Shown: positions 1 through 9,404 of the stretch, in pieces | How the letters are laid out: each line of letters opens with the position of its first letter | How positions within the stretch are numbered: the stretch's first letter is position 1 | Source: Terrimicrobiaceae bacterium | GTDB taxonomy: Bacteria; Verrucomicrobiota; Verrucomicrobiia; Chthoniobacterales; JAATET01 | Length of the DNA stretch: 38,640 nt | Assembly (NCBI GenBank): GCA_028713285.1 | Contig: JAQTOP010000025.1 | Span: 1-38,640 of the forward strand | Reading direction: 5' to 3' | Translations under genes and position numbers: made by a program | Notes under the pieces: model-generated | The model's input: the letters and a program-made list of their open reading frames with translations, nothing else | Told to the model about the DNA's origin: nothing | Database searches by the model: none

Positions 1-196
1 AACCACCAAGAACACCAAGAACACGGAGAGTCCAATTCGACGTGGGGCTCAGACGCGGGGACTGTCTGAGCGTATTGCCCAGGTCACCATCTGCGTCAAT
101 CTGCGCAATCTGCGGTTAAGTTCCTTCCCGCGCTCGCGTGAGCGTCTCCCCCGAATGGAACCACAGAGGCCGCAGAGCACGCAGAGGATGAGGGAA
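1..196. repeat. Partial copy of the 192-bp intergenic repeat at the window edge
   Basis: The window opens inside a copy of the repeat that forms the tandem array at 5378-6172. It carries the same modules in the same order: the AACACCAAG word, a CTCAGAC/GTCTGAG hairpin, three ATCTGCG words, and the ACCACAGAGG module. Bases 1 to about 400 match 5986 to about 6386 with one indel, so the whole 3' flank is duplicated downstream of the first two PEP-CTERM genes. The array probably continues to the left of the window. No gene is seen in 1-462. Confidence 0.85.
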
Positions 197-221
197 ACCG
201 AGGCGCCATCACCACCCCTGG

Positions 222-343
222 TGTGGTGTCACGCAAGTTCCTTGCATCAATGGGTAGGGCGGTTTCGCCGAAACCGCCGTCCCCGGACGCAAATTTCCGG
301 GCGGATCGCCATTTGATTTCTGCAAGGAACTTCTGCGACAGGA
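222..343. mobile_element. MITE-like 122-bp palindromic element, copy 1
   Basis: Near its ends are long imperfect inverted repeats, 227-246 and 321-340, sharing the core AAGTTCCTTGCA. An inner near-palindrome GGCGGTTTCG/CGAAACCGCC lies in the middle. The element is bracketed by the direct repeat CCCTGG (216-221 and 344-349). The matching place downstream of the third PEP-CTERM gene, around 7904, has a single CCCTGG and no element, which looks like an empty site. A non-autonomous insertion with a 6-bp target duplication is the favoured reading. A deletion between CCCTGG repeats in the third copy would look the same. It encodes nothing. Confidence 0.5.
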
Positions 344-404
344 CCCTGGCGCCCTTTGCGCGCGTGGCGCGAACCTCATCCCTCGATCCGGGTTGCAGGC
401 AAAA

Positions 405-441
405 GAAAAAACCCCGGGGGCGGTGGCCTCCCGGGGTTTTT
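405..441 (-). terminator. Rho-independent terminator of the beta-strand repeat gene
   Basis: A stem of CCCCGGG against CCCGGGG is flanked by A and T runs. Read on the minus strand it ends in TTTTTTCTTTT, as expected for an intrinsic terminator about 20 bases after the stop codon at 463. The flanking A/T runs could make it work in both directions. Confidence 0.8.
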
Positions 442-462
442 CGGAATTGAGTTTTGATTGGT

Positions 463-3400
463 TCAGAAGCCCTGCGCGGCCCTGCGGCGGCGGCGCAATA
501 CGACGAGCGCCAACAGGCCCGCCATGCCGAGGGCGTAGGTGCCCGGCTCGGGCACTGCCGATGCCGTGAGTGTGAGGTCATTGCCCGTTCCGCCCGAGTA
601 GCTCACCCCGTAGTTGTAGTTGCCGCTGCTGAAGTTCGAGCCGTCCGCCAGGTTGCTGAACGTTCCGGAAATCCCGGCACCGCCGGTGTTGTCGATAATC
701 GTGAAGACCGTGCCCGGCGTAATCGCGCTGCCGGGGTTCAGATCCGTGAAGCTGAAGGATGCCCCGCTGATCGTGACCCCGTTGGCCACGACCTTGTCCG
801 CGCTGTTGGCCAGGCTGCTGTTCAACTCGAACACATACGTGGCATCGGAGTTGAGCGACAGCGCCTGCGTCGTGGTGAAGGTCCCCACGCTGTTGCCGGG
901 GGCCAGGAACGAATCGCTGCTGCCAACGCTGTTGCCGACAGTCACCGTGCCCGTCGTCGAGCCGATGCCCTGCAGCGTGCCGGCTGTCACCGTCACCGCG
1001 CTTGTGAGGCTGCCATTCACCGCGAGCGTGCCCGCGCTGATCGTCGTCGCCCCCGTGTAGGTATTCGCGCCAGAGAGCGTCACTGTGCCGCTCGTGGTCT
1101 TCGTGAGCGTCGCGGAAGCACCGCCGGCGAGGATCGCGCTGATCGAGCCGTTTTGGACATTATAGAATGCGCCGGTCAGGACCGAGGTGCCGGTGCCGGT
1201 GATGCTGCCGTTTTCCAGGATGACTCCGTTGAACGCGTTGGACGTATTGAGGTTGGCGTGATTGTTGCCGAGGTCGAAGATCGCGTTCGCGCCGTTGACA
1301 TGAATGGATGAAAGGGTGCTGAGCGACCCGGTCCCGCTGACTGTCAGCGTTCCATCCAATACCAATGTCTCGCCGTTATAGGTGTTCGCCGCGCTCAGCC
1401 AGAGCGCGCCCGCGCCGGTCTTGACGAAGCCGCCGGTAGGGGTGCCGCTGATAATGCCGCTAATTTTGGCATCGATCGCCGCAGAACCGTTATCCACCTG
1501 CACCGTGCGATCCACCGCGCCTCCCAAGGCAATGGGATTTTGGAAATCGACCATGGCGTCTGCGCTGCTGGCGCCCAGAATGAGCGATGCGCCATTGGCT
1601 ACGAAGCTTCCGCTGGCCCAAGTGACCGCTGCGGATGCCCCGCCGAGGTTCACAAAACGATCCGCGCCGTAAGCAGCAAAGCCGCCGCTTCCGCCATTCC
1701 ATTGAACTTGGGTGACACCTGTGCCAAGCCCGCGTGTGAAGTCCGCAGTAAGTCCGATGACCCCGCCTCGGAAAAACAGGTTGCTGAGGCCGCCCGCCGC
1801 GCCGATGCCGCCTGGCAGAGCGTTTGCACTGCTGAGTTTCAAAACGCCTTCGGTGGCAACCGTTGCGCCGGTATAGGTGTTCGTGCCACTGAGTGAGACC
1901 AAGCCAGCTCCGGCTTTGGTGAGACCGGTCGGACCCGCGCCGTTGTTTTGGATCGTCGCGCCAATGTCCAGCGTGGTGCCGCCCGCTCCGCGATTGATGA
2001 CGATGAGATCCCCGGTGGCGCCGGAACTGCCTTGCAGATTCCCGCTGGTGATCGTCAGCGCCTTGTTATTGACGGCGCTGGTGACCAGGATGCCGTCCGG
2101 GACGGTCAGTGTCTGGCTGCCGAGATTCGGTCCGCCGGCCACGTCGTTGTTGAAGCGAAGGGAGTTGATCGTCGCTGCACTGGCCAGGCTTCCCGTGAAC
2201 CCGCCCGCCGTGGTGTTGGTGATGTTATTGGCGGCGATCCAGTTCGCCGATCCGACCGTGCTGTCATCGGTGTAAGCGGAATACGCCACGATATTGCTGC
2301 CGCCCTTGGTCGCCCAGTCGTTGCCATTGACGGTGAGCCGACGGATGAGCCCGCCCGCGTCGGTGCCGGATGTGGTGGTGACCCCGTTGGTGGCGCTGGA
2401 GGTTCCGCTTAGAGTAATGTCCAGGGCGCTGCCGGCAACGCCGTTGTTGATTCCGCCGAGGTTCAGCACGACTTCACCCGTGCCGCCTCCGGGGGCCATC
2501 ACGAGCCTAGAGGATCCCGCGTTCAGTGCCGTTGAGGCGACGGTCTGGCTGTTGCTCGTATTATCTTTTCCGGTCAATTTCAAGGTTCCGCCGTTGAATT
2601 GGGTACCGGCGGCGGAGGAGGACAGGATATTCGTTGTTGGCGCGCCGGTGGCGGAAAAATCGAGATTCAGCGTGCCGCCGTTCGCCACGAAGGTGGAGCC
2701 GGTGTAGGTATTGGCGGCGGAGAGATTCGTGGTCCCAGTGCCGCTGGCGGTAAATGACGTGGGCACGGAGTTGTCGGCGGCATTATTGCTAATGACGCCG
2801 GTGATATTGGTCGTGCCCCGGCCATTCAGAAAGATGGTATTGGCCGTGGCGGTGGTCGAAGAGAGATAGACATTCCCGGACAGCGTCAGCGCCGCTCCAT
2901 CGAGGTCGTTAAACAAATTCAATGTCGCCTGTCCTACGCCGCTAGCGCTGAAGGTCCCGCCGAACTCGATGCCTTTGTTGCCTTTGATGTCCAAACCATT
3001 GCTTTGGTAAACCACGTTGTTGGCGATTTTATTCGCACCGGTGAGGTCGGTGCTGGCCGAAAAGGCGCCGGAGTTATTGAGATAGACGGTGCCGGTGCTG
3101 AAAGCGGCCTTGTTGCCGAGAATGACATTGAATGCCTGCGAGCCCAGAATCGTGTCGCCGATGAAGGTATTGGCGGCATTCAGCGTGATCTGGCCGCCTG
3201 CGGACTGAAGACTGTTGATCGTCAAACCGCCGATGTTGGAGCTGTCCAGAGGGCTGTTGTACACGGTATTCTGGCCGGCAACGTGCAGAGCGATGGCGCT
3301 GGTGCTGTTCTTGATGCGGGCGGAGTAATCGGCGCGGTTTTGCAAACCGAGCACGCCGCCATTGAAGGTGATGTTGCCGCCATTGCCCAGGTTGCCGGAG

Positions 3401-5088
3401 ACGCCGGGTGTTTCAAAGCCGGCCACCGTATATAGATAGCCGTAGTTGATGTTTGTCGTGCCGGTGTAGGTGCTGGCACCGCCAAGGGTGAACCCAACAT
3501 TTCTATTATCCGTGTTGTAGGGAGCGATCTGCGTGACAGTGATACCCGCGCCGGCGGCACCCGAGATAGGCGCGGAGATAGTGACGCTTTGGTTATTGGT
3601 GGTGAGAACCAATTCATTGCTGGATCCGATGACCAGATTTCCCGACCCGCTCACCGTCAGTGCTCCGGTGCCGGCGTTCATCAAGCCGTTCAATGTGGTG
3701 CTGAAGCCGCCATTGGCCAAAGTTGCGGCGGCGCCGGTGTAGCGCAAGGTGTTGCCGGTAATGGCGCCGGTCTGGGTCGCGGCGGCGGCGAATTTATAAT
3801 TGGTCGTCGCGCTGGTCACGTTGCTCAAGTTGCCCGCCGTGCCATCGGTGGCGCTGGCGCCGTTGGCGATGATGTTGCCTCCGCTGACGGTAGCGTAGTC
3901 CAGGTTCGTTCCCGTGCCGACTGAAGCCCAGGTTCCCAGGATGCCGGTGGCGTCGTTGGCGTTGCTGGTTTTGACGATATTGACCGTGGCGGCCGGAGCG
4001 GTAAATGTGGCGGGAACCGCCACGCTGTTGGCGCTGAGGTTCAGCGTCGAATTGGCGTTGCGGGTGATGGCGCCCAGGTTGGCGGTAAGGGTTGAAGCGC
4101 CGTTCGCCGTCAGGACAACCGTCGAGTGGCCGGCGTTGAGTGTCGTTCCGTTGAACGCCTGGGTGTTGGTGCCGGCGACAGACGCCTTCAGATTCAAAAA
4201 CGGGGAATAGGACTCGTTAATATTGCTGTAGGAGGTGTTGAGGGAAAACAGGGATCCGCCGCCCAGAACCAGCCCGGAGGAGGAACTGACGATCGAAGCC
4301 GGCGCCGACACCGAGAAGTCCAACTGGAGCTGACCGGCCTTGACGGTGGTCGCTCCGGTATAGGTATTGGCTCCAGTCAGGATGACGCTGCCCCCCGCGG
4401 AAGTGCCGCTCCGGGTGGCCACGGTGAGAGCAATCGTGCCGACACCACCTCCATCGCTGATGACGCCGTTGAAAATCGTATTGCTTCCGCCCCCCGCACC
4501 AGCAGCGGCGACCGTGAGCGTAAGCGGAGTCACGGCACTCGTGTTCGTGACATTGTTGACGATCGTCAGGTTGGACCCGCTGGAGTTGTAATTGGTCCAA
4601 GTCTGGCTGCCGTTGAGCGCGACGTTCACTTTCTGACCGGCCGTCGCCGAACCGATGGTCACCGCGCCAAGGGGATTGATATACTGGATGCCTCCGGACC
4701 CGATGGTCAGCGTGCGGTCGGTGCCACCGCCAAGCAACGTATAAGGCGTTGAGTTTGTGCCGAAGGCCGGACTTATATTTCCAAAAATCAATCCTTGAAC
4801 AGCTTGGTCAGCATTCAGATTCACGGTCTTTAAAGGCGCGTTCAGATTCCCCGCGACATTGGTGCTAAAAACAGCGATGTCCGCGGCGCCGGGAGGCGAG
4901 CCCGGGTCGGGGGTACCCGCCGTACCGACTGTGGACCAGTTTCCAGCCGCGTCCCAACCCGCCGGGGTCGTTCCATCCCAGAAGATGTAAGCCGCTTGCG
5001 CGGTGCCACTGGCGAACGACGCCACAGCAAGCAGCGAGAGTGAGCGAAGGAGAAGATTGCGACTAAAAAAACGAGGGGACGATTTCAT
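463..5088 (-). CDS. Large exported beta-strand-repeat protein with PEP-CTERM sorting signal
   Basis: This 1541-residue protein is probably exported and anchored at the cell surface. Residues 1-32 are a typical signal peptide (basic start, hydrophobic core, ending near GTAQA). The body is rich in Gly, Ser, Thr, Asn and Ala and carries about seven repeats of the autotransporter-associated beta-strand type (form L-x-x-A-N-T-Y-T-G-x-T), near residues 239, 538, 639, 792, 1069, 1234 and 1342. A long right-handed beta-helix is inferred. The last 30 residues are a PEP-CTERM signal: VPEPGTYALG, a hydrophobic helix, then five arginines. There is no C-terminal autotransporter barrel, so exosortase processing rather than type V secretion is expected. 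Its terminator lies at 405-441 and a TTGACA box about 95 bases upstream. The ligand or substrate is unknown. Confidence 0.93.
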   Translation of the reverse strand: MKSSPRFFSRNLLLRSLSLLAVASFASGTAQAAYIFWDGTTPAGWDAAGNWSTVGTAGTPDPGSPPGAADIAVFSTNVAGNLNAPLKTVNLNADQAVQGLIFGNISPAFGTNSTPYTLLGGGTDRTLTIGSGGIQYINPLGAVTIGSATAGQKVNVALNGSQTWTNYNSSGSNLTIVNNVTNTSAVTPLTLTVAAAGAGGGSNTIFNGVISDGGGVGTIALTVATRSGTSAGGSVILTGANTYTGATTVKAGQLQLDFSVSAPASIVSSSSGLVLGGGSLFSLNTSYSNINESYSPFLNLKASVAGTNTQAFNGTTLNAGHSTVVLTANGASTLTANLGAITRNANSTLNLSANSVAVPATFTAPAATVNIVKTSNANDATGILGTWASVGTGTNLDYATVSGGNIIANGASATDGTAGNLSNVTSATTNYKFAAAATQTGAITGNTLRYTGAAATLANGGFSTTLNGLMNAGTGALTVSGSGNLVIGSSNELVLTTNNQSVTISAPISGAAGAGITVTQIAPYNTDNRNVGFTLGGASTYTGTTNINYGYLYTVAGFETPGVSGNLGNGGNITFNGGVLGLQNRADYSARIKNSTSAIALHVAGQNTVYNSPLDSSNIGGLTINSLQSAGGQITLNAANTFIGDTILGSQAFNVILGNKAAFSTGTVYLNNSGAFSASTDLTGANKIANNVVYQSNGLDIKGNKGIEFGGTFSASGVGQATLNLFNDLDGAALTLSGNVYLSSTTATANTIFLNGRGTTNITGVISNNAADNSVPTSFTASGTGTTNLSAANTYTGSTFVANGGTLNLDFSATGAPTTNILSSSAAGTQFNGGTLKLTGKDNTSNSQTVASTALNAGSSRLVMAPGGGTGEVVLNLGGINNGVAGSALDITLSGTSSATNGVTTTSGTDAGGLIRRLTVNGNDWATKGGSNIVAYSAYTDDSTVGSANWIAANNITNTTAGGFTGSLASAATINSLRFNNDVAGGPNLGSQTLTVPDGILVTSAVNNKALTITSGNLQGSSGATGDLIVINRGAGGTTLDIGATIQNNGAGPTGLTKAGAGLVSLSGTNTYTGATVATEGVLKLSSANALPGGIGAAGGLSNLFFRGGVIGLTADFTRGLGTGVTQVQWNGGSGGFAAYGADRFVNLGGASAAVTWASGSFVANGASLILGASSADAMVDFQNPIALGGAVDRTVQVDNGSAAIDAKISGIISGTPTGGFVKTGAGALWLSAANTYNGETLVLDGTLTVSGTGSLSTLSSIHVNGANAIFDLGNNHANLNTSNAFNGVILENGSITGTGTSVLTGAFYNVQNGSISAILAGGASATLTKTTSGTVTLSGANTYTGATTISAGTLAVNGSLTSAVTVTAGTLQGIGSTTGTVTVGNSVGSSDSFLAPGNSVGTFTTTQALSLNSDATYVFELNSSLANSADKVVANGVTISGASFSFTDLNPGSAITPGTVFTIIDNTGGAGISGTFSNLADGSNFSSGNYNYGVSYSGGTGNDLTLTASAVPEPGTYALGMAGLLALVVLRRRRRAAQGF

Positions 5089-5377
5089 GCTTTTGGGGTT
5101 GTTGCCCAGGGGGTTGGACAGGTTACTGAGGGGGGATTGGGGGGGTGGAGGATTGTTGGCAGCGTGGCGGTATTGAAAAAAATGTCAAAATAAATTTGAA
5201 CAAATTTCAATGCGGCGCGCGGGTGACGCAGTTTTCCCACCGAAAATGCAGGCGGACACAGAGAAGAACGGGCCGGAATGAAAATTTCGGAGGAGACGCA
5301 TTGCCGTGTCGAGATTTTGACAGCGGGAAGGCATCGCGGTTTTCTCCGCGCCTTTGCGCCTTCGCGTGAGATTTCCC
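5089..5377. other. Non-coding upstream region shared with the third PEP-CTERM gene
   Basis: No gene is seen here. From about 5170 to 5345 the sequence is collinear with 9230-9400 upstream of the third PEP-CTERM gene. Shared words are the TTGACA box, GCGGGTGA, GCAGTTT and AATGCAGGCGGA at matching distances. Bases 5343-5377 hold a dispersed module (CTCCGCGCCTTTGCGCC form) facing the ACCACAGAGG module of the adjacent array in inverted orientation. Confidence 0.6.
5183..5188 (-). promoter_or_regulatory. TTGACA box upstream of the beta-strand repeat gene
   Basis: On the minus strand this reads TTTTGACA about 95 bases before the ATG, followed by CAATACCGCCAC. The third PEP-CTERM gene has the same box and a nearly identical following segment at the same distance. 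The spacing of 17 bases leads to a poor -10 (ACGCTG), so it may be a -35 element or another protein-binding site. Confidence 0.4.
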
Positions 5378-6172
5378 TGAATGGGAACCACAGAGGGCAC
5401 GGAGCACACGGAGGATTGAACCACCAAGAACACGGAGAGTCCAATTCGACGTTGGGCTCAGACGCGGGGACTGTCTGAGCGTATTGCCCAAGTCACCATC
5501 TGCGGCAATCTGCGCAATCTGCGGTTAAGTTCCTTCGCGCTCTCGCGTGAGCGTCTCACCTGAATGGGAACCACAGAGGCCGCAGAGAACACGGAGGATT
5601 GAACCACCAAGAACACCAAGAACACGGAGAGTCCAATTCGACGTGGGGCTCAGACGCGGGGACTGTCTGAGCGTATTGCCCAGGTCACCATCTGCGTCAA
5701 TCTGCGCAATCTGCGGTTAAGTTCCTTCGCGCGCTCGCGTGAGCGTCTCACCTGAATGGGAACCACAGAGGCCGCAGAGAACACGGAGGATTGAACCACC
5801 AAGAACACCAAGAACACGGAGAGTCCAATTTGACGTGGGGCTCAGACGCGGGGACTGTCTGAGCGTATTGCCCAGGTCACCATCTGCGTCAATCTGCGCA
5901 ATCTGCGGTTAAGTTCCTTCGCGCTCTCGCGTGAGAGTCTCACCTGAATGGGAACCACAGAGGCCGCAGAGAACACGGAGGATTGAACCACCAAGAACAC
6001 CAAGGACACGGAGAGTCCAATTCGACGTTGGGCTCAGACGCGGGGACTGTCTGAGCGTATTGCCCAGGTCACCATCTGCGTCAATCTGCGCAATCTGCGG
6101 TTAAGTTCCTTCGCGCTCTCGCGTGAGCGTCTCACCTGAATGGGAACCACAGAGGCCGCAGAGCGCACAGAG
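5378..6172. repeat. Tandem array of a 192-bp intergenic repeat, four units plus a partial
   Basis: Units begin at TGAATGGG at 5378, 5561, 5753, 5945 and 6137 (partial). The first unit is 183 bp because it lacks one 9-bp CAAGAACAC subunit; the next three are exactly 192 bp. Each unit contains the ACCACAGAGGCCGCAGAG module, the CCACCAAGAACACCAAG module, a hairpin CTCAGAC-9 nt-GTCTGAG, three ATCTGCG words ending in GGTTAA, and a second hairpin GTGAG-CGT-CTCAC, altered to GTGAG-AGT-CTCAC in one unit. Copies differ by only a few bases. Short open frames across it are meaningless translations of the repeat. Similar words are widespread dispersed repeats in environmental bacterial genomes. Confidence 0.9.
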
Positions 6173-6207
6173 GATGAGGGAAACCGAGGCGCCATCACCA
6201 CCCCTGG

Positions 6208-6329
6208 TGTGGTGTCACGCAAGTTCCTTGCATCAATGGGTAGGGCGGTTTCGCCGAAACGGCCGTCCCCGGACGCAAATTTCCGGGCGGATCGCCATTT
6301 GATTTCTGCAAGGAACTTCTGCGACACGA
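6208..6329. mobile_element. MITE-like 122-bp palindromic element, copy 2
   Basis: This copy has the same length as the one at 222-343 and differs at only a few positions. Its inverted repeats are 6213-6232 and 6307-6326, and the flanking direct repeats CCCTGG are at 6202-6207 and 6330-6335. One difference (CCGAAACGGCC for CCGAAACCGCC) breaks a pair of the inner palindrome. Confidence 0.5.
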
Positions 6330-6450: not shown

Positions 6451-7587
6451 TTACAGGCCACGCACGAGCCGGCGGCGGCGGCGCAACACGACGAGCGCCA
6501 TCAGGCCTGCCATGCCCAGAGCGTAGTTCCCCGGCTCGGGAACCGGCAGGCCGCCGCCGAAGCTGGCGGGTGCGCTGTTATACAGACGCAACTCGTCGTA
6601 GCTGACCGAAACCGTGTCGCCCGCTACCGGGGTATTCTGTCGAATGTTCCAAGCACCGGTCTGGAAGACGGACGATGCGGAAAGGCCCACGGACCCCGCC
6701 AGGTTGAACGTCTGGGTCACGAGCAACTGGGGGCTGCTTGCGCTCGTATCGATATCACCGGTTCCAGTCACTCCGAAGAGCCGCATGGTGATCAAACCGT
6801 TCAGGTCCGTTTCGAATGTGAAGCCGATGTGCAGGGAAATTCCCTCGGCGAAACCAAACCCATTCGCAGCCTGGCTGGTCGTGATAAAAAGGTTGTTCGT
6901 CGCTGCGACGCTGTTCGTGCCATTCGTTCCTGCCGCTCCGGGCCCGGTGACAGCGGCCAGATTCGAGAAGACATTGGGGCCACCAGCGGTGTTGGCACTG
7001 GCTGCAATCTGGATCTGGATATTGCCCAAAGGCGCGGTCGAAGCGTTATAGACCCCGTTGGTGCCGGTGATAATAAATCGCAAGCCGCCCGCATTTGCCA
7101 CGCTGCCCAGGTTGTTGCTGTCGAGCAGACGAAACCAGCCACTATGCTGCACCGTGTTGAGGGTGTCGGGGCGAACGAATACATCCATTCCTCCCTGGAG
7201 GGCGGTGAACCCATTCACCTGCCCCGCGTAAAAAGTGCCCAAACCGGTGGCGGAAGATCCAGCGCCCGGGGTACTCGGGGTAAAGGTGGCGATAGCGAAC
7301 CCGCTAACCGGCGTCGTCGGGGACTGCACGGCATTCAGGTAGCCGCCGGACAACGATGATAGCGGGTTGGCGAAGCTCACCGCATCGGTGCCATTCGTGA
7401 TCGATCCGACCACGCCCGTGCCGCCCGTCGCAACGATGTTGTTGCCGGGATTGGTGTCGGTGTTGAAACTTGCGTCGAAGACCGTAGCCGCATTGGTGGC
7501 GCCCGTTCCCATGAGGAGACAGGCACTGGCAACGGCGGCGAAAGCGCGCGTGGAATTTGAACGGGGATGGGAGGTTTTGTTTTTCAT
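6451..7587 (-). CDS. PEP-CTERM exported protein, paralogue A
   Basis: This 378-residue protein is secreted and probably anchored. Residues 1-33 form a signal peptide ending near TNA. The mature part starts ATVFDASFNTDTNPGNN and is Gly/Thr/Asn-rich, with alternating hydrophobic residues suggesting a beta-sandwich like those of lectin or concanavalin-type domains; no named domain was recognised. The C-terminus is a PEP-CTERM signal: LPVPEPGNYALG, a hydrophobic helix, then RRRRRLVRGL. It is nearly identical to the gene at 8022-9149 over the whole body. A TTGACA box lies about 112 bases upstream and a terminator at 6392-6427. Neighbours are only other PEP-CTERM genes. The function is unknown; a structural or carbohydrate-binding surface role is a guess. 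Confidence 0.88.
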   Translation of the reverse strand: MKNKTSHPRSNSTRAFAAVASACLLMGTGATNAATVFDASFNTDTNPGNNIVATGGTGVVGSITNGTDAVSFANPLSSLSGGYLNAVQSPTTPVSGFAIATFTPSTPGAGSSATGLGTFYAGQVNGFTALQGGMDVFVRPDTLNTVQHSGWFRLLDSNNLGSVANAGGLRFIITGTNGVYNASTAPLGNIQIQIAASANTAGGPNVFSNLAAVTGPGAAGTNGTNSVAATNNLFITTSQAANGFGFAEGISLHIGFTFETDLNGLITMRLFGVTGTGDIDTSASSPQLLVTQTFNLAGSVGLSASSVFQTGAWNIRQNTPVAGDTVSVSYDELRLYNSAPASFGGGLPVPEPGNYALGMAGLMALVVLRRRRRLVRGL

Positions 7588-7903: not shown

Positions 7904-8111
7904 CCCTGGCGCCCTTTGCGCGCGTGGCGCGAACCTCATCCCTCGATCCGGGTTGCAGGCAAAAGAAAAACCCCGGGGGCGGTGGCCTCCCGGGGTTTTT
8001 CGGAATTGAGTTTTGATTGGTTCAGAAGCCCTGCGCGGCCCTGCGGCGGCGGCGCAACACGACGAGCGCCAACAGGCCCGCCATGCCGAGGGCGTAGGTG
8101 CCCGGCTCGGG
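7904..8111. repeat. 3' cassette copied from the beta-strand repeat gene
   Basis: These 208 bases match 344-552 with one single-base indel and one substitution. The block covers downstream DNA, the terminator hairpin, the stop codon and the last 30 codons, and stops within the PEP motif codons. Upstream of it in the reading direction the gene follows paralogue A instead. This marks a recent recombination or gene-conversion event. Confidence 0.85.
7966..8001 (-). terminator. Rho-independent terminator of PEP-CTERM paralogue B
   Basis: The hairpin is identical to that at 405-441 except for one A fewer in the A run. On the minus strand it ends with TTTTTCTTTT about 20 bases after the stop codon at 8022. 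Confidence 0.8.
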
Positions 8112-9149
8112 AACCGGCAGGGCGTCAAAGCTGGCGGGTGCGCTGTTATACAGACGCAACTCGTCGTAGCTGACCGAAACCGTGTCGCCCGCTAGCGCGG
8201 TATTCTGTCGAATGTTCCAAGCACCGGTCTGGAAGACGGACGATGCGGAAAGGCCCACGGACCCCGCCAGGTTGAACGTCTGGGTCACGAGCAACTGGGG
8301 GCTGCTTGCGCTCGTATCGATTGCACCGGTTCCAGTCACTCCGAAGAGCCGCATGGTGATCAAACCGTTCAGGTCCGTTTCGAATGTGAAGCCGATGTGC
8401 AGGGAAATTCCCTCGGCGAAACCAAACCCATTCGCAGCCTGGCTGGTCGTGATAAAAAGGTTGTTCGTCGCTGCGACGCTGTTCGTGCCATTCGTTCCTG
8501 CCGCTCCGGGCCCGGTGACAGCGGCCAGATTCGAGAAGACATTGGGGCCACCAGCGGTGTTGGCACTGGCTGCAATCTGGATCTGGATATTGCCCAAAGG
8601 CGCGGTCGAAGCGTTATAGACCCCGTTGGTGCCGGTGATAATAAATCGCAAGCCGCCCGCATTTGCCACGCTGCCCAGGTTGTTGCTGTCGAGCAGACGA
8701 AACCAGCCACTATGCTGCACCGTGTTGAGGGTGTCGGGGCGAACGAATACATCCATTCCTCCCTGGAGGGCGGTGAACCCATTCACCTGCCCCGCGTAAA
8801 AAGTGCCCAAACCGGTGGCGGAAGATCCAGCGCCCGGGGTACTCGGGGTAAAGGTGGCGATAGCGAACCCGCTAGCCGGCGACGTCGGGGACTGCACGGC
8901 ATTCAGGTAGCCGCCGGACAACGACGATAGCGGGTTGGCGAAGCTCACCGCATCGGTGCCATTCGTGATCGATCCGACCACGCCCGTGCCGCCCGTCGCA
9001 ACGATGTTATTGCCGGGATTGGTGTCGGTGTTGAAACTTGCGTCGAAGACCAGAGCCGCATTGCTGACGCCCGTTCCCATGAGGAGACAGGCACTGGCAA
9101 CGGCGGCGAAAGCGCGCGCGGAATTTGACAGGGGATGGGCAGTTTTCAT
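8022..9149 (-). CDS. PEP-CTERM exported protein, paralogue B (mosaic gene)
   Basis: This 375-residue protein is a near copy of the gene at 6451-7587; the visible body differences are few (for example SPTSPASG for SPTTPVSG, GAIDTS for GDIDTS). The start at 9149 is chosen because it aligns with the paralogue start and opens directly into the signal peptide (MKTAHPLSNSARAF, ending near SNA). An upstream in-frame start at 9242 would put 31 non-signal residues in front. The last 30 residues are identical to those of the 1541-residue protein, not to paralogue A, so body and sorting tail have different origins. The upstream region also resembles that of the large gene. It is exported and probably anchored; function unknown. 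Confidence 0.87.
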   Translation of the reverse strand: MKTAHPLSNSARAFAAVASACLLMGTGVSNAALVFDASFNTDTNPGNNIVATGGTGVVGSITNGTDAVSFANPLSSLSGGYLNAVQSPTSPASGFAIATFTPSTPGAGSSATGLGTFYAGQVNGFTALQGGMDVFVRPDTLNTVQHSGWFRLLDSNNLGSVANAGGLRFIITGTNGVYNASTAPLGNIQIQIAASANTAGGPNVFSNLAAVTGPGAAGTNGTNSVAATNNLFITTSQAANGFGFAEGISLHIGFTFETDLNGLITMRLFGVTGTGAIDTSASSPQLLVTQTFNLAGSVGLSASSVFQTGAWNIRQNTALAGDTVSVSYDELRLYNSAPASFDALPVPEPGTYALGMAGLLALVVLRRRRRAAQGF

Positions 9150-9246
9150 TTCGGGGTGTTTTGGGGTGTTTTTTTGAGCTGAGGTGAATGGTTGGGTGGA
9201 TCGCTGGGGCTGGGGTTTGAGGAGATAGTGGCGATATTGCATCCGA

Positions 9247-9252
9247 TGTCAA
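9247..9252 (-). promoter_or_regulatory. TTGACA box upstream of PEP-CTERM paralogue B
   Basis: On the minus strand this reads TTTTGACA about 98 bases before the ATG. It is followed by CAATATCGCCACTATC, closely matching the segment at the same distance before the 1541-residue gene. ACTATC at 17-base spacing is a weak -10 candidate. Confidence 0.45.
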
Positions 9253-9341
9253 AAGAATTCTGGAAAAATTTTAAGAGGAGAGATGCGGGTGAAGCAGTTT
9301 GTGCATTGGGAATGCAGGCGGATGCCGGGATTGGATGGCAT

Positions 9342-9358
9342 GGATGCGGATCGCATCC
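9342..9358. promoter_or_regulatory. Perfect 7-bp inverted repeat, possible operator
   Basis: GGATGCG and CGCATCC flank a 3-base spacer, about 190 bases upstream of paralogue B. It has no equivalent upstream of the other two PEP-CTERM genes. It could be a protein-binding site or a small cruciform; there is no further support. Confidence 0.25.
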
Positions 9359-9404
9359 GGTGTCGAAATTGCTCCAGCAGAACGACAGATCGGCGTCGAT
9401 TCAC

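Follow-up and report, generated by a model that had tools for sequence, protein, structure and literature searches.

How a gene comes to carry the body of one neighbor and the sorting signal of another, unrelated one is the question raised by a cluster of three PEP-CTERM genes at the left end of the window analyzed here, the whole 38,640-nucleotide stretch of contig C48 from a draft genome of 157 contigs and 3.53 Mb. The genes, g1, g2, and g3, all lie on the minus strand, at the positions from which the original prediction started. Their translations begin with basic plus hydrophobic N-termini, as judged by eye, and TIGR02595 scores of 17.0 (g1), 16.9 (g2), and 19.2 bits (g3), set against the curated cut-off of 16, identify all three as PEP-CTERM genes. 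PF07589 is over the cut-off in g1 and g3 and below it in g2, and no body domain reaches the cut-off for the g2 and g3 bodies in the domain scan. TIGR02595 has 29 matches in the genome at E up to 10, and PF09721 is over the Pfam cut-off in two exosortase (EpsH) genes, at C79:13450-14235 (152.5 bits) and C20:29135-29941 (141.1 bits). The features of the cluster are as follows:

212..343, no strand assigned: hairpin-forming dispersed element behind g1, folding z = -5.1, 98.5% identical to the copy behind g2
344..462, no strand assigned: g1 3' flank, including the terminator at about 405-445; 98-100% identical to the g3 3' flank and 67% identical to that of g2 in the terminator part
463..5088, minus strand: g1, encoding a 1541-aa PATR/beta-strand-repeat protein with a PEP-CTERM tail (TIGR02601 x6, PF12951 x5, PF07589)
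463..552, minus strand: g1 tail region, with 89 of 90 bases as in g3
5089..5329, minus strand: g1 5' flank, homologous to that of g3
5351..6175, no strand assigned: 192-bp tandem repeat array of 4.4 copies behind g2 (between g1 and g2); another copy lies behind g1 at window 1-158
6198..6329, no strand assigned: hairpin element behind g2, 98.5% identical to the copy behind g1
6451..7587, minus strand: g2, encoding a 378-aa PEP-CTERM protein, the body paralogue of g3, with its own tail variant and terminator
7904..8021, no strand assigned: g3 terminator and 3' flank, g1-like, without the ~130-bp hairpin element found behind g1 and g2
8022..9149, minus strand: g3, the mosaic gene, encoding a 375-aa PEP-CTERM protein
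8022..8111, minus strand: g1-like tail of g3, from base alignment with g1
8101..8111, minus strand: switch point, CCCGAGCCGGG on the coding strand, the bases common exactly to both tracts
8112..9149, minus strand: body of g3, g2-like from the start codon to the PEP codons, with a 551-bp stretch identical to g2 and diverged outer parts
9150..9390, minus strand: g3 5' flank, homologous to the g1 5' flank (64% over 233 bp) and not to that of g2

Over its body g3 is nearly identical to g2, as had been predicted: 1017 of 1045 aligned columns are identical and 28 differ, and the identical columns include an uninterrupted run of 551 bp. The tails of g2 and g3 differ at 15 of 93 columns. Base identity in the tail is 89/90 for g1 and g3, 83.3% for g2 and g3, and 82.2% for g1 and g2, and the last 30 residues, VPEPGTYALGMAGLLALVVLRRRRRAAQGF, are the same in g3 and in g1, a PATR-repeat protein unrelated to g3 in its body (30/30). 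Read 5' to 3' along the gene, g3 tracks g2 up to CTGCCGGTT followed by CCCGAGCCGGG and tracks g1 from CCCGAGCCGGG on. The exact overlap of the g2-like and g1-like tracts is thus CCCGAGCCGGG, 11 bases encoding PEPG, and base alignment puts it at 8101-8111, inside the PEP codons and at the place (near 8111) where the switch had been expected. The alignments demonstrate both recent common DNA descent of the g2 and g3 bodies and a meeting of the two tracts within these 11 bases. Assembly error, which the original prediction had named among the outcomes that would refute it, would mean that reads of two loci were joined in a metagenome-like draft, and the 157 contigs, the repetitive cluster, and the beginning of the contig in a repeat all invite that suspicion. 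It is nevertheless very improbable, as the exact overlap at the switch is shorter than usual assembler k-mers, g1 and g3 differ at two places within their shared tract, and the same kind of junction is found in other, separate assemblies (described below).

The unit common to g1 and g3 is larger than the tail originally described. The shared block covers 212 aligned positions at 98.6% identity (window 344-552 against 7904-8111) and runs from the PEP codons through the tail, the stop codon, and the terminator to about 60 bp beyond. Terminator DNA is 98% identical between g1 and g3 vs. 67-68% for g1/g2 and g2/g3. Tails might be alike only through strong protein selection on the sorting signal combined with strong codon bias, given that the PEP, hydrophobic, and basic parts are common to all tails and that the PEP codons start CCCGAGCC in 30-58% of genes per genome. 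For g1 and g3 we rejected this explanation, the probability of which is negligible, on the basis of a codon test and noncoding identity. In their shared tail, 27 of 29 degenerate codons are identical, where the genome's own tails lead one to expect 10.8 (p = 1.9e-10); the same test, applied to 13,759 tail pairs drawn from different genomes, gives no value as low as 1e-5. The first 20 noncoding bases past the tail are identical (20/20), and identity runs about 120 bp into noncoding DNA and terminator. Because codons are shared and noncoding DNA is identical, convergence at the protein level is ruled out for this pair, and the comparison of bases establishes that g1 and g3 are of very recent common DNA descent from the tail through the stop codon and terminator into the proximal 3' flank.

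Homology between g1 and g3 is also present in the 5' flanks (64% over 233 bp, z 16.7), from which an older common descent is evident at the DNA level, and the flank comparison found no relation of the g2 5' flank to that of g1 or g3. In order, g3 is therefore g1-like in its 5' flank, g2-like in its body from approximately the start codon to the PEP codons, and g1-like in its tail, terminator, and proximal 3' flank; judged by these affinities, it is a g1-like frame enclosing a g2-like body. The description of g3 as one neighbor's body joined to another's tail stands as far as the junction is concerned, but the promoter side is g1-like too, so that g3 is equally a body set in a g1-type frame. 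A possible promoter element, TTTTGACAT followed by a spacer and then CAATAYCGCCAC, is conserved between the g1 (5089-5329) and g3 (9150-9390) 5' flanks.

Transfer from g1 to g3, the direction originally proposed, is slightly favored by the sequence comparisons, at little better than even odds. In the opposite polarity, to which we give somewhat less than an even chance, the tail would have belonged to the g2/g3 body family from the start, with g1 as the recipient, a PATR body placed in a g3-type frame. This polarity is suggested by the pattern VPEPG.YAL..AGLL..LRRRR, which occurs in the tails of the body-family members C19a and C85a as it does in g1, g2, and g3, and by C117, the closest body paralogue of g1 (71% over the matched part of the last 233 body residues), which has a different tail. 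The tail tree argues against it, grouping g1, g2, and g3 with C117, itself a long branch, apart from C19/C85 at 99/98, as do the UTRs of the three genes, which are nearer to that of C117 (60-62%; random median 45, 95th percentile 53) than to that of C19a. The evidence on polarity therefore conflicts, tail tree and UTRs against motif pattern, with both tail copies present. We detected no relatives of the g3 body in 56 other genomes of the order or in the wider genome-contig set, and orthologs from those sets consequently neither date nor polarize the event.

A second case of tail sharing lies in the same genome. The tail cores of C85a and C19a are 97% identical (76/78) from the PEP codons on, and similarity between the bodies is much lower. 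In its 3' flank C85a matches C19b and not C19a, and the gene after it begins like the neighbor of C19b; C85a thus has the tail core of C19a set between C19b-like flanks. On both C85 and C19 (L047:1-1700, L048), members of the g2/g3 body family stand in tandem, and their order on the one (C85a-C85b) corresponds to that on the other (C19b-C19a); the motif of C85b is VPEQ in place of VPEP.

A search of related genomes for genes with discordant bodies and tails, originally suggested as a check, also yielded cases, in G055/G035 and, more weakly, in G003. The tail and UTR of G055 L071, which has no FGE domain, match G035 L208 at 91.4% over 185 nt from the PEP codon, where L208, like G035 L202 and G033 L100, has a short or broken reading frame, such that missing body homology means little in these three. 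The same L071 tail and UTR match the FGE-sulfatase gene L203 at 86.8% over 151 nt, and G055 L309, again without an FGE domain, has 175 nt in common with the FGE-sulfatase gene L302, most of them in the final codons and the UTR. G003 belongs to the genus of the window, and two of its genes on different contigs, L198 and L200, have tail and terminator in common (80% over 158 nt from the V-PEP codon). Both are PATR-like, one of them below the Pfam cut-off, which makes the case weaker, and distant homology between their bodies is possible. A tail match between G033 L104 and L116 was dropped because the bodies proved to be homologous.

Farther downstream in the cluster the affinities shift: g1 and g2 share the hairpin element (98.5%) and copies of the 192-bp repeat, and g3 is without the hairpin element. 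Identity between the g2 and g3 bodies is uneven, with 551 bp identical and the outer parts diverged (P about 0.0016 if 12 events were placed uniformly). Uneven identity and shifting affinities together indicate that several exchanges of differing age overlap in the cluster. Local segmental duplication with unequal crossing-over in a repeat-rich cluster, without any gene conversion, could yield much of the same pattern from three neighboring genes in tandem, and the 192-bp tandem array, the hairpin element shared by 3' flanks, and the contig start inside a repeat are all in keeping with it. We regard this explanation as unlikely, although well short of negligible, since both the uneven g2/g3 body identity and the short C85a tract between differently related flanks need nonreciprocal short tracts, and since some of the genes paired in G055 and G003 lie on different contigs. 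The hairpin element, ~130 bp with inverted GTTCCTTGCA/TGCAAGGAAC arms, has relatives of 74-79% identity on C5, C54, C27, and C112; the matching site behind g3 has no such element and has CCCTGG at the junction. The contig starts within a copy of the 192-bp repeat and probably breaks in that repeat.

We favor, with a probability of about 0.8, the reading that g3 is a recombinant PEP-CTERM gene that arose by ectopic homologous recombination, most simply gene conversion, among three same-strand neighbors. Ectopic gene conversion between paralogous genes is an established general mechanism, and the locus resembles it in its sharp identity switches, the inclusion of noncoding DNA, and the uneven tracts; g1 and g3 have a near-identical tract that includes noncoding DNA, and other parts of them are unrelated. 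It differs in that the donor and recipient cargoes are unrelated, leaving only the sorting signal and flanks as homologous sequence. Each conversion tract would have one anchor in the GC-rich PEP codons, the first place at which cargo genes that are otherwise unrelated can align, and a second in the repeated 3' flanks. Because unrelated cargoes align only at the motif and flanks, the motif or its immediate vicinity is where any exchange that brings in a new tail has to end. The PEP codons in which the switch falls are themselves conserved coding sequence, and an anchor of coding sequence in a fixed frame would give an in-frame fusion; the motif being always read in one frame, the reading frame is kept. 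The product would retain a valid exosortase signal at its end and so stay sortable, and recurrent events would keep tails similar within a genome whose cargoes vary. A switch at PEP lies where homology ends and hence needs no special signal. Nor is a dedicated recombinase needed, and a scan of 10 further ORFs, from part of the 9.5-29.4 kb region of the window, found none.

The proposal that recombination at the sorting motif reassorts exosortase substrates is borne out to the extent that exchange is in frame, joins unrelated bodies, and has further examples in C85a/C19a, G055/G035, and the weaker G003 pair. The PEP-CTERM features are the same in shared tails and in those replaced, so that homogenization of tails fits at least as well as the new cargo and anchor combinations that had been envisaged. 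Shuffling of cell-surface anchor domains, such as those of LPXTG proteins, may offer a parallel, in that a C-terminal sorting signal is found there on diverse cargoes; the sortase is a different one.

The signals in g1, g2, and g3 and the two exosortase genes are those of the known PEP-CTERM/exosortase system (TIGR02595, PF07589, PF09721; PMC1569441). There the tail was described as a modular domain that expands within lineages and is more alike within than between species (Haft et al. 2006, PMC1569441), a likeness ascribed to paralogous expansion; recombination and shuffling go unmentioned in the text. The locus described here departs from that account in that DNA has been exchanged, with the switch inside the PEP codons and the terminator carried along. 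A literature search on PEP-CTERM tails and gene conversion, conducted outside subscription journals, found no paper. The mechanism itself is known; its location in the codons of the exosortase motif, with the terminator moving too, appears undescribed in the literature searched. We offer only tentatively the wider suggestion that in exosortase-bearing bacteria the tail and terminator might form a reassorting 3' module, with recombination at the PEP codons repeatedly joining new cargoes in frame and homogenizing tails within a genome. Such a module would account for tails clustering by species while cargoes do not, and an exchange point inside the sorting motif provides a testable alternative to gene duplication, the customary explanation, for within-species tail likeness (PMC1569441). 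Under this alternative, the motif codons may act as a recombination adaptor by which new in-frame exosortase substrates arise and tails stay uniform. Trees or ortholog calls based on tails need not agree with those of the cargo.

Tail reassortment happens, and recent swaps are rare. Codon-significant tail sharing between unrelated bodies was detected in 1 of 381 pairs in this genome and in none of 2379 pairs among the 71 tails of G041, counts that weigh against the favored reading. G041 has coding-level similarities only, and selection or codon bias is possible for its weak 75-80% coding-only cases. In a looser screen, sharing extends past the stop codon in 28 of 4517 within-genome pairs vs. 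27 of 25,137 cross-genome pairs, figures artificially raised by broken genes and by the inclusion of two genomes from a single genus; the cases cited above are hand-checked pairs only. The G035 and G055 loci L203, L213, L302, and L303 encode a family of FGE-sulfatase-domain proteins with PEP-CTERM tails, present in several copies per genome.
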